From Arthrobacter sp. zg-Y238 (GTDB taxonomy: Bacteria; Actinomycetota; Actinomycetes; Actinomycetales; Micrococcaceae): a stretch of 64,000 nucleotides of DNA. Location of the stretch: contig NZ_JANFLU010000012.1 in assembly GCF_024385525.1 (NCBI RefSeq), forward strand, positions 1-64,000, written 5' to 3'. The translations under genes and the position numbers were made by a program. Below are positions 18,995-31,844 of the stretch, one piece after another. Within the stretch, counting starts at the first letter, position 1; each line of letters opens with the position of its first letter. The notes under the pieces are model-generated. The model worked only from the letters and a program-made list of their open reading frames with translations. It ran no database searches and had not been told where the DNA came from.

Positions 18995-19915
18995 CTACTG
19001 CGGACCGGAAAGCCGCCCGATCCGCTCGCGGGCAGACCGTTCGCTGGGTCCCTGCGGACCGAGCCCAAGCCGGATAACACCCAAAACAAGTTTCACGGGA
19101 AACTTCATTGGCACGGGAACCGGACCCAGGTGCGGAGCCCGCAGCCCCAACATCTCCCTGTGCTTCGGCTCCAGGCTGGCTACAGCCCCGGCAAACAGCA
19201 CCCGGTACCCGATCCGCTGGTTTCCCGGCAGGGGAGGACGGCGAAGGAACCCCAGCGCCTCCCGCACATAGTCGCTGTTGCGCAGCTGGGTATCGTAGCC
19301 GGCCATCTGCTTCCGCAGATCGGCTTCGGAACGCGGCGGATCCGGAATACCCATCAACTCACCCGCCACCGCCCACTCCGCCACATAGGCATCAGCCCCG
19401 CCCGGAATGGGACCGCCGTAACGCTGGTGCGAGGAGAGGAACGCGTCGGCGAAGGCCAGATGCACCCAGCGGGCAATCTCGGGATCATTGGCTGAATACG
19501 GCCGCACCGCGCCGTCGGCGTCTACATAAGTGCCGTGCACGCGTTCATGCAGCCGCAACACCCAGTCGGAGCCCGCCTTGGCAGCGGCCGTGTCCCCGTA
19601 GGTGACGGTGAAGATCCAGCGGATGGTTCCGGCAAGCCGACCCAGCGGATCGTCCTTGTAGTCGGAGAAGTCGTGGACCCCGGCCATCGCCCCGGGATGC
19701 AGCGCCTGGAGCAGCAGGGCCCGGATGCCGGCGATGATGGGCGTCATGGACCCGTGCACCGCCCAGACCGCGGACTCGGGACCGAAGTGGCCGACGTCGT
19801 CGCCCTCCGCCAGCTCAAGCTCCCACTGCGGGATCTCGGCGGCGTTGTTGCTGAATGTGCCGATCAGCTGGCGGCGCCAGGACGCGATCGCCCGGGGAGG
19901 AGAAAAAACGCTCAT
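18995..19915 (-). CDS. MpaB-family (DUF2236) oxygenase-like protein
   Basis: 306 residues. The family signature region includes WAVHGSMTPIIAGIRALLLQ, then LHPGAMAGVHDFSDYKDDP, followed by RLAGTIRWIFTVTYGD and a C-terminal HREMLGLRAP element. This matches the DUF2236/MpaB fold, which is heme-containing in the latex-clearing protein Lcp and in MpaB. The conserved His residues near the first block fit heme or substrate binding. Many actinobacteria carry several copies, and the substrate is unknown. About 100 bases separate it from the small membrane protein gene upstream on the same strand. Confidence 0.85.
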   Translation of the reverse strand: MSVFSPPRAIASWRRQLIGTFSNNAAEIPQWELELAEGDDVGHFGPESAVWAVHGSMTPIIAGIRALLLQALHPGAMAGVHDFSDYKDDPLGRLAGTIRWIFTVTYGDTAAAKAGSDWVLRLHERVHGTYVDADGAVRPYSANDPEIARWVHLAFADAFLSSHQRYGGPIPGGADAYVAEWAVAGELMGIPDPPRSEADLRKQMAGYDTQLRNSDYVREALGFLRRPPLPGNQRIGYRVLFAGAVASLEPKHREMLGLRAPHLGPVPVPMKFPVKLVLGVIRLGLGPQGPSERSARERIGRLSGPQ

Positions 19916-20019: not shown

Positions 20020-20214
20020 CTACGGCCGCGGGCCGTGGTCCGGCCCTCCCTCACGCTGGTGCCGCTGGAAGGCCAGCACCGGGGCCGCTGCGAAGAACAG
20101 CAGCGCAGCGAGCCACAGAATGCCCGCAATGTTCCCCAGCGGCCCCATCGTGGCAAGAAGAATGCAGGCAACGCCGGTTAGCATCACGGCGTTTACCGTG
20201 TACTTGTCTTTCAT
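20020..20214 (-). CDS. Small two-helix membrane protein downstream of jetC
   Basis: 64 residues with two hydrophobic segments (about 8-27 and 30-48) and a hydrophilic, Pro/Gly-rich C-terminus. ATG 20214 is chosen because AAAGG lies just upstream. It begins 21 bases after the jetC stop on the same strand and is probably on the same transcript. This is the position where jetD follows in many Wadjet operons, but it has no likeness to JetD. Function not recognised; a chance neighbour is equally possible. Confidence 0.6.
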   Translation of the reverse strand: MKDKYTVNAVMLTGVACILLATMGPLGNIAGILWLAALLFFAAAPVLAFQRHQREGGPDHGPRP

Positions 20215-20235
20215 GTCATTACCTTTCATACACGC

Positions 20236-23200
20236 CTAGCGCAGCAGGATGTCCACCGACCGGGAGTTGCCCATGGCCCGTTCCATCACGCCGGAACGGT
20301 TGGTGACGTCGTCGCGCAGGATTTCCGTGACCGAGCCCAGGAACCGGGAGAGGTCCACCTTGTCCTCCGGTGCGGCGAGCAGCAGCTGGAAGCCGAACTC
20401 GTGCAGCGCGTTGATGGACGCCTCGGCAAAGGAGAGGGACGACTTTACAAACGCTTCGTCCATCATCACGGTTCCGTACGTGCTGAAGCCCTGGGACACA
20501 ATGCCCAGTTGGTAGGCCAGCGCCGAGGCCATGATGAACGCGGTGAACCGCTGGCCCTCGCCGCCGGACATCAGCGACGCCTGCAGGTTGGTGTAGGTGT
20601 GCCCGCTGGCGAGACGGTGGGTGCAGGTGATGGTCACGTGCGAGCGGACATCGAGCACCTCGGCCCGCCAGCGCTTCTCCTCGGGATCCTTCAGCCGGTC
20701 CACCAGGGCCTCGAGCGCGGCGTACCGGGCGTCCATGTCCGCCTTATCCTGCCGCGAGCCCATCATGGGCAGTGCGTTCTTCAGTTCGGTGCGGAACTTG
20801 TGCGCGGCGTCGGGAACGGTGGTGGCGACCTCGATCTCCAGGTGGCTGCTGGCAGAGTATTCCACCCGGCGGAGCACGGAGTTCAGCGGCAGCAGGCGCG
20901 AGGAGATGCTGCGGCGTTCCTCGTCGAGCAGCTGCAGCAGGTCGCTGAACCGCTCGTAGGTGCGGTTGTTGAAGTACTCGCGGAACTCGGCTTCGCGCTG
21001 CGGCAGGCCCTCGGAAATGATGTCCTCGAAGCGGTCCTCGTAGGCGCCGGCGGATTCCACCGACGTGCCGAAATCCGAACCCCACTTATCGCTGAACGTC
21101 TCGAACGTGCGTTCCAGCTTCGCGCGGGTTTCCAGCAGGGTCTTCTCCAGCCGGGCCTGCTCGGTGATCAGGGACCGTTCCACCTCGCCGGCGGCCTCCT
21201 TCAGGCGGGCCGGGTCGGTCAGTTCCCCGAAGGGATCGAACAGTTCGGCCAGCGCGGAACGGAGTCCCTCGGACAGCGCTTCGGGTGCCTTCGCGGAGAG
21301 CGCGGTGCGGCGCTCGACGGCGGCGGCCAGGTCGGCGTCGAGCCTCGCGGCGTCGCCCTTGAGCACGCCGACCTTCTCGGTGGCTGCGGTGAGGTCCAGC
21401 TCGGCGGTGTCGAGCTCGAAGCGGATCTGCTCCAGATCGGCGTTGGCATCCCGAGCGGATTCGAGCCGGTCATTGGCGACGGCGACGGCGGCCCGTGCGG
21501 CGTCGGCCGACAGTTCCTCCCAGGTCCGCTCATCGGCAGCGATGGCGCGCACGGCGGCGAGCCGGCGGACCAGCTCGTCCTGCTCCTCGGCGTGCTGCCG
21601 GGAGAGGTTGTCCGCTTCCTCGAAGACGCTGCGCAGGGCCAGCAGCTCGTTGCCGAGCGCCGCGACGGTGTCCTTGTTGTCAAAGCCCAGGACGTTGTCC
21701 GAGGCCTTGGTGTGCCGGTCATCCTTTTCGGTGGTGCTGCGGTTGCGCTTGACCGCACCGCCGAGGCTCACACCCTTGGCGACGTCGGCCAGCCCGGCCG
21801 GGTCCTCGACGCAGACGAAGTCGTAGTGCGCGGTGATTTTGTGGCGGACCCACTCGCCCATTTCCGAGTCGTGGGTGAGCAGCTTGGTGATCAGGTCATC
21901 GGGGCCCGGCTCGGCGGGGCCGTCCACGGGAACGGAGACGTCGATGCAGCGGACATAGCCGTGCATGTCATTCTCGCTGAGGTACCGGGTGACGGCGGCC
22001 ATGTGCTCGCCGGGCACCAGCAGGGCGGTGGCGAGAGAACGCAGCGTGCGCTCGGCGGCAGGACGCCACTGCGCGTGCTCGTTGGGCAGGTCGATGAGTT
22101 CACCCGCGAACGGCATGTCCGCTTCGTCGATGCCGGTGGCGGCGCAGATCCGGGCCCGCTGATCCAGGGAGTCCTGCCGGATGTTGGAGGTGCGGCGGCG
22201 GAATGAGCCGATCTCGTTTTCCAGCTTCGCGATCTGGCCCTTGAGGGACCACGCCTCGCCGTGCGCGTTGCTGCTGCGCTCGCGGGCGGCGTCGAGCTCG
22301 GTGCCGAGCGACTTCACCAGCTCGGCGGCGCGGCTGCGGGCGGTGACCAGCCCGGCGGGGGAGAAGTCGACCTCGATCCCCGCCGCGGCGAGCTCGTCCT
22401 TGGCGGCGTTCTCCACGGTTTCCCGGGAGCGCAGCTGCGCGGACGCAGCCGCGAGTTCCCGTTCGAGGGTGGCTATGGCTCCGCCGCCCTCTTCGGTGTA
22501 CCGGGTGCTGAGGGCATCGCGCTGGTCCTTCAGCGTGGCCCGGCGGGTTTCGGCGGCGGAGAGTTCGGAGCGGGCTTCAGTTGCGGCCTGCTCGAGTTTC
22601 TCGGCGGTGCGCTCGGCGCCTTCGAGGGCGAGGCGCTGCCGGTAGGCGGGCAGGCCTTCCTTGGCCAGGGCGCGGTTGTGCGCCAGCGCGTCGGCGGCTT
22701 CGCGGTAGCGGGTGTGCAGTTCCGGGACGGACTGCAGGTGGTCGCGCTGCTGCCGGGCGCGTTCGAGCTGGCGGCGGATGCTGCGCAGGTGGCTGAAGTC
22801 CTCCACGGCCTCTTCGGCGGCGGTGAGGGTGCGCGGGGTGTCCAGCACGTGGTTGCGGAAGAAGTCATTGACCGTGCCGCCCAGACCCTTGCCGGTCTGC
22901 AGGATACGCAGCAGGTTGAAGGCCTTCTCGTCCTCCACACCCAGGGCATGCCGGTAGCGTTCGGCGAACATCTTGTGCGAATCGAACACTGCGGCACCGG
23001 GCAGCAGGGATTCCAGGCTTCCCTTGGTGAAGCGGCCGCGCATGCCGGCCTGCAGGGCCTTAAGGTCCAGCGGGCGGTTGTGCACCAGGTAGTAGCGGCC
23101 CAGGTTGTGCTCGGTGCCGGTGGCGGGGAGGTCCATGACTACAGAGAGGGAGGTGATCTGCCCCAGGCCGTTGTCGAACGTCAGGCAGACCGCGGACCAG

Positions 23201-23547
23201 GTGGCGCCGGGGCGCTGGTAGGCGGTGCCCGCGCCGTCGTCGGCCCCCTGCGTGCCCAGGCGTCCGCGCATGTAGGAGAACGCGTTGCGCTTTTCCTCGG
23301 CGTTGGTGCCGGAGTTGTTCTGCGCGGCCTCGTTCATCCGCGGGCGGGCGTCCATGACCTGGAGCATGGCGTCGAAGATGGTGGATTTGCCCACGCCGGA
23401 GTCGCCGGTGAGCAGCGTGCCGGCACGGTCCACCTTGATGGTGTGCGCGCCGTCGAAGGTGCCCCAGTTGACGATCTGCACGGAGGCGAGCCGGTTCTGG
23501 CCGGGGTTGATCAGGTCTCCCATGGGGAGGGTGGTTTCGATGCTCAT
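20236..23547 (-). CDS. jetC: JetC/MksB SMC-like ATPase of a Wadjet/Mks complex
   Basis: 1103 residues. Walker A TGDSGVGKST is at 47-56. A long coiled-coil-rich middle follows, with a hinge-like globular part around 450-640. The C-terminal head has ABC signature SGGEGQR (994-1000) and Walker B VMMDEAF (D1030, E1031). N-terminal motif VNWGTFDGAHTIKVDRAGTLLTGDS, broken by the P-loop, is typical of MukB/MksB/JetC. With its kleisin and KITE-like partners it should form a DNA loop-extruding ring. The start overlaps jetB as ATGA. All ATPase residues appear intact. No jetD follows. Confidence 0.93.
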   Translation of the reverse strand: MSIETTLPMGDLINPGQNRLASVQIVNWGTFDGAHTIKVDRAGTLLTGDSGVGKSTIFDAMLQVMDARPRMNEAAQNNSGTNAEEKRNAFSYMRGRLGTQGADDGAGTAYQRPGATWSAVCLTFDNGLGQITSLSVVMDLPATGTEHNLGRYYLVHNRPLDLKALQAGMRGRFTKGSLESLLPGAAVFDSHKMFAERYRHALGVEDEKAFNLLRILQTGKGLGGTVNDFFRNHVLDTPRTLTAAEEAVEDFSHLRSIRRQLERARQQRDHLQSVPELHTRYREAADALAHNRALAKEGLPAYRQRLALEGAERTAEKLEQAATEARSELSAAETRRATLKDQRDALSTRYTEEGGGAIATLERELAAASAQLRSRETVENAAKDELAAAGIEVDFSPAGLVTARSRAAELVKSLGTELDAARERSSNAHGEAWSLKGQIAKLENEIGSFRRRTSNIRQDSLDQRARICAATGIDEADMPFAGELIDLPNEHAQWRPAAERTLRSLATALLVPGEHMAAVTRYLSENDMHGYVRCIDVSVPVDGPAEPGPDDLITKLLTHDSEMGEWVRHKITAHYDFVCVEDPAGLADVAKGVSLGGAVKRNRSTTEKDDRHTKASDNVLGFDNKDTVAALGNELLALRSVFEEADNLSRQHAEEQDELVRRLAAVRAIAADERTWEELSADAARAAVAVANDRLESARDANADLEQIRFELDTAELDLTAATEKVGVLKGDAARLDADLAAAVERRTALSAKAPEALSEGLRSALAELFDPFGELTDPARLKEAAGEVERSLITEQARLEKTLLETRAKLERTFETFSDKWGSDFGTSVESAGAYEDRFEDIISEGLPQREAEFREYFNNRTYERFSDLLQLLDEERRSISSRLLPLNSVLRRVEYSASSHLEIEVATTVPDAAHKFRTELKNALPMMGSRQDKADMDARYAALEALVDRLKDPEEKRWRAEVLDVRSHVTITCTHRLASGHTYTNLQASLMSGGEGQRFTAFIMASALAYQLGIVSQGFSTYGTVMMDEAFVKSSLSFAEASINALHEFGFQLLLAAPEDKVDLSRFLGSVTEILRDDVTNRSGVMERAMGNSRSVDILLR

Positions 23548-24308
23548 GCCGGCTCCTCGCCGTCGTTCTCTTCAGCGGGGGTTTTGTCGTCGGGGGTGCT
23601 GTCCAGGACCAGCGCGGGAGCGTCGTCATCGTCCCCGCCGAGGGTCTGCATAAAGGTGATGATGTCGCCGATCTGGCTGTACGGCAGGGCCAGCGGCAGG
23701 GCGTTGGAAATGACCCAGACGTTGTCCAGCTCGGTGGGGAGCAGCAGGCGGCGGTCCTGCACGAGCTTGCGGATGGCGGCGTCGGCCAGGTCCTCCACGG
23801 ACTTCGCGTCGCGCTGGCCCGGATCCACGTAGCCCTCGAGCACCTCGATGATGTCCTGCCGGGCGATGGTGGCCTCGTTTCCGGTGCCGGTGTGGCGGTC
23901 CAGGATCAGCCGCATGCGCAGCAGCAGCAGGGTTTCCTCGCGGGTCATTTCGCGCTGGCGCTGCAGGGCGGAGGTGTGCGGTTCGGCCATTTCCACCGGG
24001 CGCAGCAGGGCGACCTTGCGGTCCTCGTCAATGACCAGGGTGAGGAACAGTTCGCTCAGCCGGACGCGCAGCTGCTCCTGGTTGTCCACCACGGTCTCGT
24101 ACACGTTGTCCGAGGAGTTCGCGTCCAGGTACGGGCCGCGCAGCAGCCGGATGAGGGCCTGCCGCAGCTTCAGCGGCAGGGTGCCGGTGTCGCCGGGGAA
24201 CAGTTCCGGGCCGTCGACGAGGAGGTCGCGCGGGGCTTCTTGTTCCTGCGCTTCGTCCAGCTCCGGATCGAAGTCCTCCGGGGCTGCTGTTGCGGTGGTC
24301 TCGCTCAT
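23544..24308 (-). CDS. jetB: JetB/MksE (DUF4194) condensin accessory subunit
   Basis: 254 residues, acidic at both ends, with a winged-helix-rich core (about 40-220) typical of DUF4194, the KITE-type subunit that binds the kleisin in Wadjet/Mks complexes. It is coupled on both sides: ATGA overlap with jetA upstream and ATGA overlap with jetC downstream. The order F-E-B (A-B-C) is the canonical one, and this order plus length identifies it better than any single motif. Confidence 0.88.
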   Translation of the reverse strand: MSETTATAAPEDFDPELDEAQEQEAPRDLLVDGPELFPGDTGTLPLKLRQALIRLLRGPYLDANSSDNVYETVVDNQEQLRVRLSELFLTLVIDEDRKVALLRPVEMAEPHTSALQRQREMTREETLLLLRMRLILDRHTGTGNEATIARQDIIEVLEGYVDPGQRDAKSVEDLADAAIRKLVQDRRLLLPTELDNVWVISNALPLALPYSQIGDIITFMQTLGGDDDDAPALVLDSTPDDKTPAEENDGEEPA

Positions 24309-25762
24309 TTTTCAGGGGCTTTCGCGACGGCGACGGCGGGCAGCAGCGCGGTGCGCTCGCTGCCGTCGATCTGGGTAAAGGTGACGGATTCAAGGTGTTG
24401 CTTGGCAGCAGAGTCGGCGGCTGAGCCGCCGGCGAGCAGGGCGCGGATGCTGTTCAGGTGCCGGTGTTCGGGCGGCAGCTGCTCGAAGACCTGGGCCACG
24501 GTGGCGCTGGCGCGGGTCGCCGTCGCCCGGGAGACGGCGTCGGCCAGTACCCGCCGGTCCGCGCGCGGGGTGCGGACCGAGCGGTGGATGTCCGCCTCGG
24601 TGAACTGCGGCGGTTCGGGCAGGGTGGGCGGGGCGGCATGGTCTTCGGGGTTGTAGACCCGGACCATGCTGAGGGATTCGAAGCCCGAGCCATGCAGCTG
24701 CGGTGCGGGTACGACGGCGGCCCGGCGGCGTCCGCGCGGAGCCTTGTGGATGGCGGTTTCGGCGGCGCGGATGAGCTGGCGCAGCTGGACAGATTCGCGG
24801 TACTCGTCGCTCTGCACGTAGGTGTGCATGGATTCGGAGAGCCGGCCGTAGATCCGGTGGATTTCGGTGGCCTGGTCGCGCATGTCGCTGATCAACCGGT
24901 ACAGGCTCTGCCGGTCCTCGGGGCTCATGTCGTCGGCGAAGTCCCGTTCCAGCACCTCCGCGATGGCGGCGCGGAAGCGGGCCTGCTGGTCGGCGTCGTT
25001 CAGGAAGGCGGTGAAGCCCTCGTAGGTGCGGCCTTCGGCGGTGCTGCGCAGCTTCTTGTCCGCTTCGAGGATTTCGCCCATGGTCAGGCCCTTGGCGGCG
25101 TTTGATTCCACCATTTCCTGGCGTAGGTCATGGAGCATCTTTTCCAGACCGTCGCGCATCCGTTTGAAGTCGGCGGGCAGGGCGGCGGCCAAGTCGAGGA
25201 TGTCGCGGGCGGCTTCGACGGCGGTGTCGTCCGGCAGGGGCGGGGGAGCCTCGCCGGATTCCAGGGCGCGAATCATTTCCTCGCGGCGGGCGACCTCTTC
25301 TTTGAGGACGGCGATGCGGGCGGCCGGGTCCGGGTTGGATTCCTGCGCGAGGTTTTCCACCCGGTCCAGCAGGGTGGCCAGGCGGGAGGAGTTCAGGGAC
25401 GTTTTGTCGCTGGTGTAGCCGTCCAGGTAGGAGAGGAAGCGGGCGGAGGATTCGGTGAGTTCGTAGACGAACTTCCCGTCGGCGCGGGGCCGGGCCAGGA
25501 AGCGGCGGGCCACCCAGTCATCGGCGTAGTTCCGTCCGGTCCAGTCTTCGCGCAGCTGCACGCCGTCCATCCGGAGCCGGTTCAGGAAGGAGTCCGTCAT
25601 GGCGTGGAAATCGTCCAGCGGAAGGCGTGGCCGGGTGCGCGTGAAGGCCTCCCGGAAGAGCGCCGGCACCCAGGCGTTGGCGTTGGTCAGTTTCCAGCCG
25701 GGGGAGGCCTGGAGCCGCTGCAGTTCGGCCCAGCGGGCAACGGCGTTCTCGATGAAGGACAT
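24305..25762 (-). CDS. jetA: JetA/MksF (DUF3375) kleisin-like subunit
   Basis: 485 residues. It opens with ENAVARWAELQRLQASPGWK and continues through the LPLDDFHAMTDSFL and RNYADDWVARRFLARPR segments typical of DUF3375. A winged-helix N-terminus is followed by a helical middle with coiled-coil character (about 155-300) and a Pro-rich stretch before the C-terminal part. It should bridge the JetC heads. ATG 25762 has GGAAAG upstream. It is the first of three coupled genes, 274 bases after the OLD nuclease gene on the same strand, and probably has its own promoter there. Confidence 0.9.
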   Translation of the reverse strand: MSFIENAVARWAELQRLQASPGWKLTNANAWVPALFREAFTRTRPRLPLDDFHAMTDSFLNRLRMDGVQLREDWTGRNYADDWVARRFLARPRADGKFVYELTESSARFLSYLDGYTSDKTSLNSSRLATLLDRVENLAQESNPDPAARIAVLKEEVARREEMIRALESGEAPPPLPDDTAVEAARDILDLAAALPADFKRMRDGLEKMLHDLRQEMVESNAAKGLTMGEILEADKKLRSTAEGRTYEGFTAFLNDADQQARFRAAIAEVLERDFADDMSPEDRQSLYRLISDMRDQATEIHRIYGRLSESMHTYVQSDEYRESVQLRQLIRAAETAIHKAPRGRRRAAVVPAPQLHGSGFESLSMVRVYNPEDHAAPPTLPEPPQFTEADIHRSVRTPRADRRVLADAVSRATATRASATVAQVFEQLPPEHRHLNSIRALLAGGSAADSAAKQHLESVTFTQIDGSERTALLPAVAVAKAPEK

Positions 25763-26036
25763 TCTGCGCTTTCCGCCCGTGCGGTGGGGAAAAACGGGCC
25801 TCCTCGATTTTAGCCGGGTGGAGCAGCGGGGTGGGGCAGGGGTGTACGAAGGCTAGGAATGAGATGGAGGAAGATGCTCGTCAGTCCAGTCTTAGCTTCG
25901 TCCCAGGGCGCCGTCTTCCGTATTTCCGGTATGCCCGTTGTGGCTGCGGTACTGGCGGCATGGGTTTCAAGGCGCCGCGGGTAAAGATTCTACCCGCGTA
26001 CCGCTATGGGATGGAGGATGGGAACCGATACTGGCA

Positions 26037-27992
26037 TCACGGGCGCCTTGACTGTGCCGATTTTATGTCCAGAGCAGTGATGAGTTCGGTGTGGAGGGCG
26101 CGAAGGGAAGTCACCCCTTCTTCGCTGGGTATGGCTTTCCCATGTTCGGCGAGGTAGCTCGCTACGTCGCGTTTGCCTGGGATGCGCAACTCAGGCATGG
26201 ATCTGGCCCAGCTCTCTAGTTGTTTGGGTCGCGGTACACCATTGTCATCGTCTATTGCAGGCTGCCCCATGATCCTGGCTGCTGGGTTCCACTCCTGCAG
26301 TAGACGCCCGTACATCAGCTTATATTCATCGGCGTCTAGAAGGTGCTCGAGCATAAGCGCGCCGAGTTGCACTACCTTGTTTGGTGCGACCCCCGCAGCA
26401 ACGAGACTCTTTTTCAGTGTCTTTCCGCCATTGTCCCCATCTACAAGGAATGCAACTCGTGCCCCTTCCAAATCGAGCCCGGCGTAGTCCTCTGGCGATA
26501 TCTCCGAGAGTCCAGGAGCAACTTGGTATGGCAGCTCCCCTAGACCTGTAGCTGCTCGGATGAGGGATGGCAGTAGCAGCATTTCCGTGGCACCTTCGGC
26601 AAGGACCACATATCGAGCTGTTGAAAAAGCTGAGGCCCCTGCCCCCATTGCGATCATAAGAGGCGTGAAGCCGCTTGCATTCCGCCAAAAACTGTTCTCA
26701 ACAGTACTCTCTTGAGAATTTTTCGCCTTTGGAAGCACCGCACGAACACCGGTACCTAGATCGGACGGCAAACACGCCGGGGAATGCGTAGTGTAGACGA
26801 TCTTTGCGACCTCATGTTGTCGCGAAAAGGATGCAACTAGATCCGCCTGGGCGTCTATGTGGAGGTGTGTTTCCGCTTCGTCGATAAGAATAATTGGTTT
26901 GACATCAGTCGTTTGCCTCGCGAGAAACGCTGCAAGGGCAACGTACATTCGAAGTCCTGCGCTGCGTTCATCGATTGGCGTGACCACATCATTGCCTTGA
27001 AGTATTTCTAGGTAAATAGTGGAAGTTTCCAGGTTGAACATTACCGACAAGTCGGATTGTCGCCAAGACTCAGCGAACTTGCGGCTAAGGGTATTGTTTG
27101 CCTTTCGGATCCGAGTTCCATACGATGCACGATTCCCATCTTCAATGTCCGAATATAATTCCGGCAGGGAAAGATCCGCCATATCCGCAAGGTTCTGGAG
27201 GGACTGGGGAATATCATCGAGCGTACGTTCGGTCAGGGTGAAAGCTGAAGGCAACGTGCGGTCGGCCTCCGAGAAGACTAATGCCTTGGGAAGAAATTCA
27301 ACAAGCCGTTTGCGAACCTCGGGGGCGGGATCATCCTCTTCGATCCAACTCAATAGATCTGCGACGGCTTGAAAAACGTCCTCGGTAATCGGATGGGATT
27401 CTGTTGACTCATGCAGGTTCAAGATCTGATCATGAAGTGGAAGGAGGGCCTCCATGAGTCGATCTTGTCCTGCCGCCTCCTCCAGACTTAGAATTAATGC
27501 CTTTAGACGTTTACCGAAATCTTCGCGAAGTTCGGCGTCGCTCTCGATTTCTGATTCTTGTGAATCTGACTGTCTCAAAAGCATATTTTCGACCGTTGTA
27601 TGAAAGCGAGCAACGAGGGCGTTGACTCTACTTTTCGACCTAGTCGGCCGAGGCTCAATATTCAGATATCTAGTTGTATCACCTGCCCTCCTAGATAGTT
27701 CCATCTTTCGTGGAAGTTCCTCGAGGTCCATATCAGCGAAAGATTGCATTTCGTGCTCCTCGAGCACATATATGCCCGTGACGACAGTCGAGTCATCGCT
27801 AGGTCTAACTGTTCTGGACCGTCGCGCTGGAGGAAGGGTGGAGGAATCGTCACTCAAATAGTGCAGCGCATCGAGGAGCGTCGACTTTCCAGCTTCATTT
27901 GGTCCGACAATCGCTATGACGCGAGGTGCCATGTCCATAGATCCCTGGGCGATTCTGCCGAATCCCGTTATAGATACTTTCGATAAACGCAA
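26037..27992 (-). CDS. OLD-family ATPase with TOPRIM nuclease domain
   Basis: 651 residues. An SMC/RecF-like ABC ATPase has Walker A GPNEAGKST (30-38), signature-like ERSAGLRMYVALAAFLA (342-358), Walker B IILIDEAE (367-374) and H-loop THS (402-404). The C-terminal TOPRIM domain has E466 in VLAEGATE and the D518-x-D520 pair in FLVDGD, so the metal-binding residues appear complete. OLD proteins are DNA nucleases; several act in phage defence, alone (P2 Old) or with a partner (GajA of Gabija). No GajB/UvrD-like helicase is adjacent. The TTG start is the best in frame. GC is clearly lower than in the neighbours, which suggests transfer. Confidence 0.88.
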   Translation of the reverse strand: MRLSKVSITGFGRIAQGSMDMAPRVIAIVGPNEAGKSTLLDALHYLSDDSSTLPPARRSRTVRPSDDSTVVTGIYVLEEHEMQSFADMDLEELPRKMELSRRAGDTTRYLNIEPRPTRSKSRVNALVARFHTTVENMLLRQSDSQESEIESDAELREDFGKRLKALILSLEEAAGQDRLMEALLPLHDQILNLHESTESHPITEDVFQAVADLLSWIEEDDPAPEVRKRLVEFLPKALVFSEADRTLPSAFTLTERTLDDIPQSLQNLADMADLSLPELYSDIEDGNRASYGTRIRKANNTLSRKFAESWRQSDLSVMFNLETSTIYLEILQGNDVVTPIDERSAGLRMYVALAAFLARQTTDVKPIILIDEAETHLHIDAQADLVASFSRQHEVAKIVYTTHSPACLPSDLGTGVRAVLPKAKNSQESTVENSFWRNASGFTPLMIAMGAGASAFSTARYVVLAEGATEMLLLPSLIRAATGLGELPYQVAPGLSEISPEDYAGLDLEGARVAFLVDGDNGGKTLKKSLVAAGVAPNKVVQLGALMLEHLLDADEYKLMYGRLLQEWNPAARIMGQPAIDDDNGVPRPKQLESWARSMPELRIPGKRDVASYLAEHGKAIPSEEGVTSLRALHTELITALDIKSAQSRRP

Positions 27993-28356
27993 TGAAGGTG
28001 CCCCCTGGTGTACTTGAGTGAAAACGCCCAGGTCTCGCGCTTTGCAGCTTGCGAGCGAGAACCACAGTTCGGTCCAACACTAACTCAACGGACTGCAATA
28101 TGGCGGTAGCATTTTCAGCGCATTTTCAACGGCGGAGAGCCCATCGTGTTGGAGCAGGATCGGCGTCAGCTTGCGAGCCTGATGGCGCCCTCCGTAAGGT
28201 CCGGGATCAGGACTGGGAGCGCAGGAGTCAGTTACGACGGCCCGCGACTGGTGATCGGGTTGAAGTCAGATTAGGCCCTCGGGGTCCTTCCCCAATCGAC
28301 AGCATGCCGGGGAGTAGCGCGCCAAAAGTGTTAAGTTCGGCCGACCTAGGTGAAGC
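27993..28356. other. Intergenic gap, nothing assigned
   Basis: 364 bases between the OLD gene start and the end of the putative HEPN gene. No open frame with a credible start is supported on either strand. It should contain the promoter of the OLD gene. An AGGGGGCACC stretch upstream of its TTG is the only ribosome-binding-site candidate. Confidence 0.5.
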
Positions 28357-29757
28357 CTATGGAACGAGGAGCGTCCCCACTCTGTACATTTCCGCACGCA
28401 GGACATCCGCGCAGATTCGTTCGAAGGCCATCAACCATTCATCTGGGTCGCCTTGTGGGGCAACGGTGGCGAGTGCTTTCCGGTACCAATTTCGCGCCAT
28501 CTGGTCAGGATCGCCAACCATGAATCTGCCATAGTGTGCGGTGGCGTTCCTCCTGGCGTACCAATGCGTGACGGCCGACGCGAGGTCGGGGGCCGGGTGC
28601 ACCATGCTCTGCTCGTCTATTGGCATTGTGCTTCGAAACAGGCGTCCAGCGATGAGCTGGTAAACCCTTGGAGCCGCCTTGGACGAATCGAGGTTTCCGG
28701 GCCACGGCGTTCCGTCGAGTCTTGTGACAGGACGACCGGCCTCGATTCGACCTATGGCTAACGTTTCAAGTGCGGACCAGAGCCTGAAGTATCTGGCATC
28801 AGGGGATGGATCTGCCTGGGCCTCGCGGAAGAGGTCTAGACACAGTTTCAACAGTGGATCATGATTCAGGGCAGTCTGCTGGAGTACCAATTGCGACTGG
28901 TTTTCGCCAGCGAGGATGCCACCAATTAGGTTGCCCCTATAGGTAGATTGTTCAAATCGAAACTTTGAAGCAATCGTTTCACCGTCTTGGAGTTGTTCCA
29001 CGCACGTGACGACGGGACGTCCGCTTGCGCCTCGATTTACCGACAAGATTGATAAGAGGTTGTCTCGGGCTTCCGTGCAAATCTGCATAGCGAGTTCGAT
29101 CGATTCAGCAAAGACATTCTCGAATGCGAACACCGATACAGGCTGATGACGTCCAAAGGCTTCAGCCCAACCTGGCTGGAGTGGTTGCGCGCTCCAGCCG
29201 AGTTGAGCGATGGCGCTATTTACGAGCTGCTCGGCGTCTGCACCTGATGGCCTAGCCTCTATGCCAAACACCCGAATACCGGGAAGCCTCATCTGAGTAG
29301 TAAGGAGGAGACCTTGCACGATGCAAGCAATGCGATAGTGCGAGGAGCCCGGAACGGTGGGGTCGCCGAGCGGCACGCCATAGCGTTCGTATTGACTTTT
29401 CTGTATGTCGGCATATCGGGCTACAACCTCAGGATCGGAGCGTCCCAATGGTCTAATCGGGTCACATATACAAACGCTGATGTTTGGAAGATCGAGTCTT
29501 TCGCTGTCGAGCCAAACACTACTAACAAATAGTGCAGTTTCACGTGTTTGTCGCGGTATTTCTATTTGTGCGTATGCAGATCCGTTACCCACTAGCTCTA
29601 ATGGGCAGTCCATGCGCCAGGAAGTTTCTAGATTGTCGGTACCAGAGATGACTGCGGCCACTTGCCTTGCTGATGCTGGTAAGTTCTCCACCCGGATGGT
29701 CGCCTTTTGCCCGCTATGAACGACTTGTGGCCATAACCTACCCCTGATGTTGCTCAT
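28357..29757 (-). CDS. Unknown protein with a putative C-terminal HEPN RNase domain
   Basis: 466 residues; no family recognised with confidence. The C-terminal third looks helical and holds YFRLWSALETLAIG (about 323-336) and ARRNATAHYG, giving R403-N-x3-H408. That fits the R-x4-6-H catalytic motif of HEPN ribonucleases, and the preceding LWSALETL helix recalls ApeA-like HEPN proteins. The N-terminal half is mixed beta/alpha and could be a sensor. It sits upstream of the OLD nuclease on the same strand, in an AT-richer stretch than its surroundings, which fits a defence role. No clear ribosome-binding site; start uncertain. The HEPN call is by motif only. Confidence 0.6.
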   Translation of the reverse strand: MSNIRGRLWPQVVHSGQKATIRVENLPASARQVAAVISGTDNLETSWRMDCPLELVGNGSAYAQIEIPRQTRETALFVSSVWLDSERLDLPNISVCICDPIRPLGRSDPEVVARYADIQKSQYERYGVPLGDPTVPGSSHYRIACIVQGLLLTTQMRLPGIRVFGIEARPSGADAEQLVNSAIAQLGWSAQPLQPGWAEAFGRHQPVSVFAFENVFAESIELAMQICTEARDNLLSILSVNRGASGRPVVTCVEQLQDGETIASKFRFEQSTYRGNLIGGILAGENQSQLVLQQTALNHDPLLKLCLDLFREAQADPSPDARYFRLWSALETLAIGRIEAGRPVTRLDGTPWPGNLDSSKAAPRVYQLIAGRLFRSTMPIDEQSMVHPAPDLASAVTHWYARRNATAHYGRFMVGDPDQMARNWYRKALATVAPQGDPDEWLMAFERICADVLRAEMYRVGTLLVP

Positions 29758-29798
29758 ACTCAGATAATAACGGCGAAATCAGTCGAAGGCGTGTGTCT

Positions 29799-30000
29799 TC
29801 GTGAATGAAGGAGACTATCCGTCCGTTTTCGTCTTGGCCCTCGATGACCCCGCCGGATGCGCCACCTGCACCGTGGTCGGATCCCAGCCCGGGCTCATCA
29901 CAGCGGCATGGAACTGTTCCTCCACCGCCTCGGGATCGTCATTGTTGACCTGTGCGATTGGGGTGCTGGCGGGCACATGGAAAGGGTTGTCCTCGACGAG
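29799..30000 (-). pseudogene. Decayed, internally deleted copy of the DUF3090/SCO1664 gene pair
   Basis: 29863-30000 matches 41600-41740, the middle of the DUF3090 gene, at high identity (for example the shared peptide NPFHVPASTP and GWDPTT). 29799-29850 matches 40969-41022, inside the SCO1664-family gene, at roughly 80 percent by eye. The intervening 580 bases or so are missing, so this is a single-deletion fusion of two adjacent genes that has lost its ends and correct frame. A 94-codon frame persists but lacks any complete domain. Confidence 0.85.
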
Positions 30001-30125
30001 GCGGTCCTGCCAGCCGCGAGGAAACGGCGCCGTATGTGAGCCAAGCGACCCGCCACCCCTCTGGTACAGCCCGATCCCGCCGCCTAGACTGACGGCCATC
30101 CGAGCGCGCCGACCTGAGGAGCAGC

Positions 30126-31844
30126 ATGCCCACGATCGCCGAGACCGTCGTCCACAACCTCGCCGCCAATGGGATCCAGCGAATCTGGGGAGTTCCCGGA
30201 GACTCCCTGAACGCGGTGACCGAGGCCATCCGCCGGGAGAAGGGCATCGAGTGGATGCTCACCCGGCATGAGGAGGAGGCCGCGTTCGCTGCCGCCGGGG
30301 AGGCGGCGCTGACGGGCGAGCTCGCGGTGTGTGCGGGCAGCTGCGGACCTGGAAACATGCACCTCATCAACGGGCTCTACGACGCGCACCGAAGCCGGGT
30401 TCCCGTGCTCGCGATCGCCTCGCACATCCCGAGCGACGAGATCGGCAGCCAGTACTTCCAGGAGACCCGACCCACCGAGCTGTTCCGTGACTGCACGGTC
30501 TTCTGCGAGATGGTGCTGAGTCCTGAGCAGATGCCGCGGCTGCTGGAGATCGCCATGCGGACGGCCATCGAGAAGAGGGGCGTGGCGGTGCTCGTGATGG
30601 CGGGCGACACCGCGCTGCAGGACGCCGCGGACGAGCGCGTCTTCACGGTCCGCCGCACCGACCCGGTCATCGTGCCCTCCCCGGCGGAGCTGCAGGAAGC
30701 CGCCGCCACGCTGAACTCCTGCGGGAACGTGACCATCCTGGCGGGCGCCGGCGTCGAGGGGGCGCGCGAGGAGGTCCTCGCCCTCGCCGACGCACTGGGA
30801 GCACCGATCGTGCATGCCCTCCGCGGCAAGGAATTCATCGAACACGACAACCCGTTCGACGTCGGCATGACCGGGCTCCTGGGCTTCGCGTCGGGATACC
30901 GGGCGATGGAGGACTGCGACGCGCTGCTGATGCTCGGCACCGACTTCCCATACCAGCAGTTCTACCCGAAGAAGGCGAAGATCCTGCAGGTCGACATCCG
31001 GGGCGAGCAGCTCGGCCGCCGCGTGCCGCTCACCCAGGGCATGGTCGGCGGGGTGCGCGAGACGGCGTTGGCGCTGCTGCCGCTGCTCGAGCGCAAGTCC
31101 AACCGCACCCACCTCGAGAAGTCCCTAGACCACTACCGCCGCACCCGCGCCCAGCTCGACGACCTTGAGAAACAGGGCCCGGGCACCATCCATCCGCAGC
31201 ACCTTGCCCACCTGATCGACGAGCTGGCGGCCGACGACGCGGTCTTCCTGCCCGACGTCGGCACTCCGGTCATCTGGGCGTCCCGGCACCTGCACATCGG
31301 CGCGCGACGGCGGCTGATCGGCTCCTTCTGGCACGGCACCATGGCGGCGGCGACCCCGCTCGGCATGGGCGCCCAGGCTGTGGACCGGAACCGGCAGGTC
31401 GTGGTCCTCGCCGGCGACGGCGGCCTCGCGATGATGCTCGGTGAGCTGCTGACGGTGGTGCAGCATCGGCTGCCGATCAAGATCGTCGTGTTCGACAACG
31501 CGGCGCTCAGCTTCGTCGAGGTGGAGATGAAGGCGGCGGGCATCGTCAACTTCGGCACCGGGCTCGAGAACCCGGACTTCGGTGCGGTTGCGCAGGCGGT
31601 GGGGATGCACGGTGAGAGCGTGACGCGCCCGGAGGACCTCGAGGCCGCCCTGCGCCGTGCGTTCGCGTACGACGGCCCCGCGCTCGTCTCCGTCGCGGTG
31701 GAGCGGCAGGAGCTCTCCATGCCGCCGAAGATCGACGCGAAGCAGGCCACGGGCTTTGCGGTCTACGCGATGCGCACGGTGCTCGCCGGCAACGGCCGCG
31801 AGCTCATCGATCTCGCCCGGGCGAACGCGCGTCAGCTGCTTTGA
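30126..31844 (+). CDS. poxB: Thiamine-diphosphate enzyme, pyruvate dehydrogenase (quinone)-like
   Basis: 572 residues. The N-terminal Pyr domain carries the catalytic Glu in RHEEEAAFAAAGEAALTG; a central FAD/nucleotide domain follows; the C-terminal PP domain has the ThDP motif GDGGLAMMLGELLT, then FDNAALSFVE. Overall layout and segments such as GVPGDSLNAV and SCGPGNMHLINGLYD match PoxB/pyruvate oxidase, which oxidises pyruvate to acetate with electrons passed to quinone at the membrane. Related ThDP enzymes cannot be fully excluded. GAGGAGC precedes the ATG. It is monocistronic and its GC is very high compared with the low-GC genes before it, so the region is composite. Confidence 0.85.
   Translation: MPTIAETVVHNLAANGIQRIWGVPGDSLNAVTEAIRREKGIEWMLTRHEEEAAFAAAGEAALTGELAVCAGSCGPGNMHLINGLYDAHRSRVPVLAIASHIPSDEIGSQYFQETRPTELFRDCTVFCEMVLSPEQMPRLLEIAMRTAIEKRGVAVLVMAGDTALQDAADERVFTVRRTDPVIVPSPAELQEAAATLNSCGNVTILAGAGVEGAREEVLALADALGAPIVHALRGKEFIEHDNPFDVGMTGLLGFASGYRAMEDCDALLMLGTDFPYQQFYPKKAKILQVDIRGEQLGRRVPLTQGMVGGVRETALALLPLLERKSNRTHLEKSLDHYRRTRAQLDDLEKQGPGTIHPQHLAHLIDELAADDAVFLPDVGTPVIWASRHLHIGARRRLIGSFWHGTMAAATPLGMGAQAVDRNRQVVVLAGDGGLAMMLGELLTVVQHRLPIKIVVFDNAALSFVEVEMKAAGIVNFGTGLENPDFGAVAQAVGMHGESVTRPEDLEAALRRAFAYDGPALVSVAVERQELSMPPKIDAKQATGFAVYAMRTVLAGNGRELIDLARANARQLL

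Follow-up and report, generated by a model that had tools for sequence, protein, structure and literature searches.

The jetA, jetB and jetC genes form a single intact operon

The window, i.e., the whole stretch of 64,000 nucleotides that was analysed, carries homologs of JetA (MksF), JetB (MksE) and JetC (MksB) within one operon on the minus strand, spanning positions 20236-25762 (Table 1). All three frames are uninterrupted from start to stop, and ATGA overlaps can be read at both the jetA/jetB and the jetB/jetC junction, as an earlier note on this DNA had claimed. The products were assigned by Pfam matches (DUF3375 for JetA, DUF4194/MksE for JetB and AAA_29/SbcC_Walker_B for JetC), by the top PADLOC models (JetA1 with 729 bits, JetB1 with 247 and JetC1 with 1045) and by sequence matches to the solved Wadjet complexes in the PDB (E 1.1e-72 for JetC, 2.2e-19 for JetA and 7.1e-6 for JetB). 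The Walker A (GDSGVGKS), signature (MSGGEGQ) and Walker B (VMMDEAF) motifs of JetC are all intact.

Table 1. Features of the jetABC locus and of related loci (window positions unless a locus is named)
Feature	Position	Strand	Basis
MpaB/Lcp oxygenase-domain gene, downstream of the operon	18995..19915	-	Pfam
Putative membrane protein after jetC, 69 aa from first ATG	20020..20229	-	membrane nature by eye
Conserved jetABC block	20233..25848	-	DNA homology, six genus comparisons
jetC / mksB, SMC ATPase, 1103 aa	20236..23547	-	ATGA overlap with jetB; Pfam, PADLOC, PDB
jetB / mksE, KITE, DUF4194, 254 aa	23544..24308	-	ATGA overlap with jetA; Pfam, PADLOC, PDB
jetA / mksF, kleisin, DUF3375, 485 aa	24305..25762	-	Pfam, PADLOC, PDB JetA chains E 2.2e-19
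jetA leader with GCTAAAATC, putative promoter	25763..25848	-	invariant in 12/12 genus genomes
Variable cargo insert between jetA and poxB-like gene, GC 0.546	25849..30044	.	DNA comparison, GC
OLD-type ATPase-TOPRIM protein, 651 aa, TTG start, GC 0.523	26037..27992	-	Pfam, PADLOC, alignment, model
466-aa protein upstream of OLD, no family	28357..29757	-	Pfam, PADLOC, NCBIfam
poxB-like gene, bordering the insert upstream (window and four relatives)	30126..31844	+	DNA/locus comparison
RecB-nuclease/helicase gene (28 further genomes alike)	L048:12291-15917	-	
RecB-nuclease/helicase gene beside JetD-less jetABC	L181:5229-8849		

In six comparisons within the genus, DNA homology upstream of jetA starts 52-86 nt out from the gene, and in five of the six its downstream end falls at 20233-20277, level with the jetC stop or slightly within the gene; in the sixth (L035) it continues into the MpaB-type gene. 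Within GCTAAAATC of the jetA leader the hexamer TAAAAT is promoter-like, resembling the -10 region of a promoter. This suggests that jetABC has a promoter of its own, and, because the promoter-like sequence is invariant, the operon is probably independent for its transcription of the OLD gene which lies upstream.

The operon holds the same place throughout the genus: the MpaB-type gene downstream and/or the poxB-like gene upstream (a name which we presume from its sequence) is found in 11 of 12 genomes, the latter as a fragment in L037. Two upstream clusters of L041 (c28 and c39) are common to L040 and L043. In L035 and L036, fragments of the 5' part of jetA lie about 3 kb upstream of the intact gene (L035:14885-15454 and L036:14848-15249); the L035 fragment adjoins a 5' fragment of the poxB-like gene, of which L036 keeps 40 bases. 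These jetA fragments are the scar of an earlier duplication or recombination. Elsewhere in the window, two 5S rRNA genes with equal scores stand about 395 bases apart on the plus strand (267-383 and 662-778).

The slot after jetC holds a small open reading frame, where the earlier note had placed a 64-residue membrane protein; the slot is indeed occupied, by 69 aa when counted from the first ATG, and by 64 aa when counted from the second Met. The profile search which that note had proposed for this protein yielded no family at E <= 0.01 in Pfam, PADLOC or NCBIfam. As its relative was found in L035 only (48%) among 40 fetched loci, the protein was rejected as a conserved part of the operon.

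JetD is absent from the genome

Type I Wadjet includes the JetD TOPRIM nuclease, which we found neither in the operon nor elsewhere in the genome. The earlier note had seen no jetD beside jetABC, which is correct, and had proposed a genome-wide search for an unlinked copy. In the organism's own genome (3.55 Mb in 20 contigs, 100% complete) neither the JetD_C (PF09983) nor the DUF3322 (PF11795) profile gave a match at E <= 0.001, and the C. glutamicum positive control matched in both searches; an unlinked JetD in the same genome was thus rejected. Among 12 sampled genomes of the genus, whose species are not independent of each other, all carry jetABC (JetA identity 78-100%) and none has a JetD match.

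A survey of the family covered 197 Micrococcaceae genomes and detected JetA relatives (E <= 1e-20) in 100 of them and JetD_C matches in 49. JetA of the window's type, defined by a score above 400 bits (43-100% identity), is present in 86 of the 197 genomes. No JetD match exists anywhere in 58 of these 86; the remaining 28 have one elsewhere, partial in some of them. Nine of the 28 were compared by place: in seven the JetD match shares a contig with JetA, the nearest lying 267 kb away, and in two it does not. For the other 19 the two are on different contigs. The slot after jetC is at or off the contig end in two of the 86 genomes (G052 and G076).

Thirty-three window-type loci from 11 genera (32 fetched loci and the window) were read on both sides of the operon. 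With our own JetD profile, in which the source JetDs score 345-522 bits and a fragment in L062 scores 59, nothing better than E 1 was obtained on either side of these loci, and no fourth gene is common to all 33. A fourth gene or constant neighbour for the whole clade was therefore rejected; the commonest neighbour, a RecB-helicase (see below), is not found in the window's genus.

The OLD-type gene lies in a variable insert upstream of jetA

The OLD-type gene is on the same strand as jetA and is separated from it by 274 bp. Its product combines an ABC ATPase with a C-terminal TOPRIM domain with conserved acidic residues, as in OLD-family nucleases. Residues E466, D518, D520 and G523, which we take to be those of the TOPRIM-type motif, are invariant in 39 sequences (alignment A2, for which 44 of 50 OLD-relative loci were checked and 38 used), so the earlier description of an upstream OLD-family protein with an intact-looking TOPRIM site holds. 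The AlphaFold2 model of the protein (mean pLDDT 85.0) matches best the heads of ABC ATPases, the top one from a condensin, and it also matches Gabija GajA (8x5i, E 4.8e-10); since the TM-scores are about 0.3, this fold match is weak, and it is supportive, not strong. Sequence matches in the PDB cover the ATPase part. The 466-aa protein encoded upstream of OLD has no relative among the 66 loci of the OLD search described below. Its C-terminal RRNATAHYG is RNxxxH-like and, we presume, possibly resembles a HEPN motif.

Both genes belong to an insert of low GC content (0.546, in comparison to 0.684 in the conserved block and 0.642 in the window), on the far side of which homology resumes at 30044-30070 in four of six relatives. 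The stretch upstream of jetA, compared between the window (25849-30044) and L034-L044, differs in gene content between genomes, and its genes are recognisably of the defence type in seven of the 12 genus genomes, including the window. L035 has a PDC-M68B/DUF2326 protein beside a weak ABC-3C CTD10 match, with clusters common to L036; PDC-S54, like PDC-M68B a PADLOC candidate family, was found in L039, AAA_13 together with Schlafen AlbA in L040 and AAA_23 with ABC-3C CTD6 in L041, and L043 carries the reverse transcriptase of a retron III-A, its PRTase and an AIPR protein. A scan of one to three proteins from each of L034, L037, L038, L042 and L044 revealed no family of the defence type.

An OLD relative (E <= 1e-20) was detected in one of the 12 genus genomes and in three of the 197 family genomes, and the stretches fetched from the other two of these three (L054 and L055) contain no jetABC. 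We also scanned a species-genome collection for the OLD pattern, in the results of which records very near the window's genome may be absent. This yielded 66 loci, including 50 (L114-L163) at E 2e-57 or better. Just one of the 50, L134 from Nocardioides sp. LHD-245, has jetABC within 10 kb, and jetD is present there. Flanks of at least 5 kb on both sides were available for about 34 of the 50 loci, and the full 10 kb for about 22, so a few OLD neighbours could be missed. A weak jetC match in L174 (E 5e-4, 52 residues), which is among the 16 poor OLD matches, was not counted. Judged from these sequence comparisons, the OLD gene can be read as cargo outside the jet operon, and together with the 466-aa gene it is probably unrelated, recently acquired cargo consisting of defence genes.

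A RecB-nuclease/helicase gene accompanies jetABC in sister genera

In 29 of the 86 window-type genomes, from five sister genera, a gene whose product of about 1200 aa combines RNase_H_2 and AAA_11/12 helicase domains lies within 10 kb of JetD-less jetABC, always upstream and co-directional. Counted by genus, the linkage was seen in 11/11 genomes of g23, 11/11 of g24 (at about 1.5 kb in a relative of this type), 4/10 of g25 (at a distance of 74-112 bp in these four), 2/3 of g18 and 1/1 of g31. On an Arthrobacter megaplasmid, a 79%-identical protein, annotated as a bifunctional RecB family nuclease/DEAD/DEAH box helicase, is encoded 151 bp upstream of jetABC, and over the 19 kb that were read there the JetD profile gave no match with an E-value below 1. 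The gene has no match in any of the 12 genomes of the window's genus.

The window-type loci form one clade and are kept by selection

The 33 window-type loci form a single clade with 100% SH-aLRT on both the JetA and the JetC tree; these are quick trees with long branches elsewhere. The JetA tree has 79 rows and the JetC tree 77, from which L087 and L108 are missing; L054 and L055, which are without jetABC, do not appear in any tree. L087 (3012-10818) has a jetA-like and a jetB-like ORF about 5.5 kb apart, and jetC was not found in the stretch fetched. Outside the clade, JetD is missing from the stretch read in 19 loci and present in 26, numbers which are not frequencies because these loci were chosen partly by their JetD state; L108 was not counted, as the contig ends within its JetC, and its no-JetD label does not amount to a real absence. 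JetD-less and JetD-bearing operons are intermixed in this part of the trees (L074-L107). On the JetC tree of sampled actinomycetes the JetD state changes at least six times; thus, the nuclease comes and goes, and the trees do not separate its loss from its gain.

All three genes are under purifying selection. In comparison to the nearest relative, dN/dS is 0.09 for jetA, 0.06 for jetC and 0.35 for jetB, and over four relatives it ranges from 0.06 to 0.44, below 1 in all 12 comparisons. The Walker A pattern is kept in 50 of 51 JetD-less JetC rows and the Walker B DE pattern in 51 of 51. The signature reads SGGEGQRFT in 29 of the 33 window-type rows (SGGERQRFT in two, with two more mis-anchored), whereas SGGQ is found in most JetD-bearing rows; we attach no functional claim to this difference. 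An N-terminal LFxGD/LWxGD motif of JetB occurs in most JetD-bearing rows (L061, L062 and L110-L113 being exceptions) and in most JetD-less rows too, and was therefore rejected as a mark of lost contact with JetD. Most JetD-less rows have preserved the short N-terminal part of JetB that precedes GDxG, so a site that may contact JetD shows no sign of decay, which counts against the condensin reading given below. Plasmid records were searched as well: 8 of 72,556 gave JetA matches, the two closest being megaplasmids from Arthrobacter, 754 kb and 1.35 Mb long, so the JetD-less clade is not strictly chromosomal.

What the JetD-less complex may be

We consider it probable that jetABC encodes an MksFEB SMC complex of a lineage devoid of JetD/MksG, acting as an accessory condensin, and that the OLD and 466-aa genes are cargo beside it. 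As in MksBEF-type condensins, MksF, MksE and MksB are present without MksG, and the SMC ATPase motifs are intact and kept by selection. Coexistence with SMC-ScpAB is indicated by ScpA, the subunit that was searched for, which was found in the genome. Dimers of JetC, with the JetA kleisin and the JetB KITE subunit, would bind DNA, and the complex would extrude loops with ATP like Wadjet and MksBEF, with no cutting step. Its role would be that of a second, accessory organiser of the chromosome beside SMC-ScpAB, like P. aeruginosa MksBEF. By this precedent, that of a motor without a cutter which is kept by selection, we infer that such a chromosomal role is the most likely one. Published precedent for this reading is found in the excerpts of PMC10586767 and PMC7617805. 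What counts against the condensin reading is that, in the excerpts of PMC7083940 and PMC10123090, the MksB of another actinobacterium, C. glutamicum, has no chromosome role, although it works there with MksG.

The earlier note had left two options: an Mks condensin, or a new Wadjet variant in which the OLD protein replaces JetD and cuts the plasmid DNA sensed by JetABC. The latter is tempting, given that the gene is adjacent, on the same strand and only 274 bp from jetA, with its TOPRIM-type residues intact. However, the co-occurrence check proposed by that note found OLD in 1/12 genus genomes and jetABC in 12/12; together with 3/197 family genomes (two of them with no jetABC in the fetched stretch) and 1/50 OLD-relative loci, the single one bearing jetD, this amounts to no conserved linkage of OLD to a JetD-less jetABC, an outcome which the note had named as refuting the proposal. 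Moreover, OLD is located in the low-GC insert and not in the conserved block, the conserved leader sequence belongs to jetA itself, and OLD has an ATPase of its own. OLD as a JetD substitute was therefore rejected, and is in our opinion very improbable; the sequence evidence favours the JetD-less Mks complex. The part of the first option that stands is the JetD-less Mks-type complex, present in all genus genomes, in one clade and with dN/dS below 1, the chromosomal role being a suggestion. Nor is it likely that the RecB-nuclease/helicase of sister genera is a functional partner of JetABC. Its upstream, co-directional position within 10 kb in 29 of 86 genomes, and the similar arrangement on the megaplasmid, with no jetD in the stretch read, speak for it. 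Against it, matches to the gene are lacking in 12/12 genomes of the window's genus, 4/4 of g20 and 4/9 of g7, all with jetABC; it was matched in genomes without a JetA match, e.g., G002; in 37 further genomes both genes are present, but on separate contigs or over 10 kb from each other; and linkage within a genus may be plain inheritance. As it is absent in the window's genus and present without JetA in G002, it is at most an optional partner. Equally doubtful is a swap of executors, in which the RecB-helicase would substitute JetD in five sister genera and the motor of the window's genus would be freed of nuclease partners altogether.

JetABC could still act against plasmids, either through a nuclease of the host, unlinked or recruited, or just by compaction, which we regard as unlikely, yet less so than the readings above. 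The proteins are near kin of the type I Wadjet models JetA1, JetB1 and JetC1, and defence genes are frequent upstream of jetA, a neighbourhood compatible with a defence role for JetABC. JetABC might recruit an unlinked nuclease, since 28 of 86 window-type genomes have a JetD match elsewhere, in part incomplete, and sister genera have the RecB-helicase neighbour. The defence-rich neighbourhood and such possible recruitment also weigh against the condensin reading. However, 58 of the 86 genomes, and the entire sampled genus, have no JetD match, and we count the excerpted evidence in PMC10586767 against this explanation. Finally, the operon could be a broken Wadjet that has recently lost JetD and is decaying, in line with the changing JetD state on the JetC tree. 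This is hardly credible: dN/dS is well below 1, jetA, jetB and jetC are long open frames in the 33 window-type loci, the Walker motifs are almost universally kept, and the JetD-less state is common to a clade spanning 11 sampled genera. Frameshifts in most strains, which would be expected of a decaying system, were not seen.

With the tempting false lead of OLD set aside, the analysis defines a JetD-less JetABC clade of one family, kept in every sampled genome of the genus, in which it can be tested directly what purpose a Wadjet motor serves once the nuclease is missing. The six or more changes of JetD state on the JetC tree allow nuclease-bearing and nuclease-less forms to be compared, within one genome in 28 of 86 cases.

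Comparison with known systems

Paenarthrobacter presumably belongs to the same family as the organism of the window. For Paenarthrobacter lasiusi S21, the gene listing in Table 6 of PMC11719660 contains a JetA-JetB-JetC locus without jetD, which on this listing is like that of the window; unlike the window's genome, that of S21 also has a separate, complete type I JetABCD (PMC11719660). Automatic calls of this kind, which count jetABC alone as Wadjet (PMC11719660, Table 6), may overstate the anti-plasmid defence of the family. In the excerpted text of PMC7617805, MukBEF, like several other members of the Wadjet group, is without MksG/JetD; operons with and without MksG are catalogued there, with the neighbouring proteins checked by AlphaFold2, and those without it share this absence with the operon of the window. 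JetD-less operons of the Wadjet group are thus already published (excerpts of PMC7617805 and PMC11719660). In the literature searched, outside which most subscription papers fall, we found no account of JetD-less Wadjet or of an MksB condensin under the term Micrococc-.

With type I Wadjet JetABCD and C. glutamicum MksBEFG, the window shares homologous JetA, JetB and JetC in the same order; in contrast to them, its genome has no JetD/MksG match. The nuclease-bearing MksBEFG of C. glutamicum targets plasmids, not the chromosome, according to the excerpts of PMC7083940 and PMC10123090. P. aeruginosa MksBEF, for which the excerpt of PMC10586767 describes a chromosome role, is likewise a three-subunit MksF-MksE-MksB complex without a nuclease that coexists with SMC-ScpAB, of which ScpA was found in the genome of the window's organism. 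The likeness to it is one of gene content, whereas by profile the proteins of the window are closest to the PADLOC models JetA1, JetB1 and JetC1.
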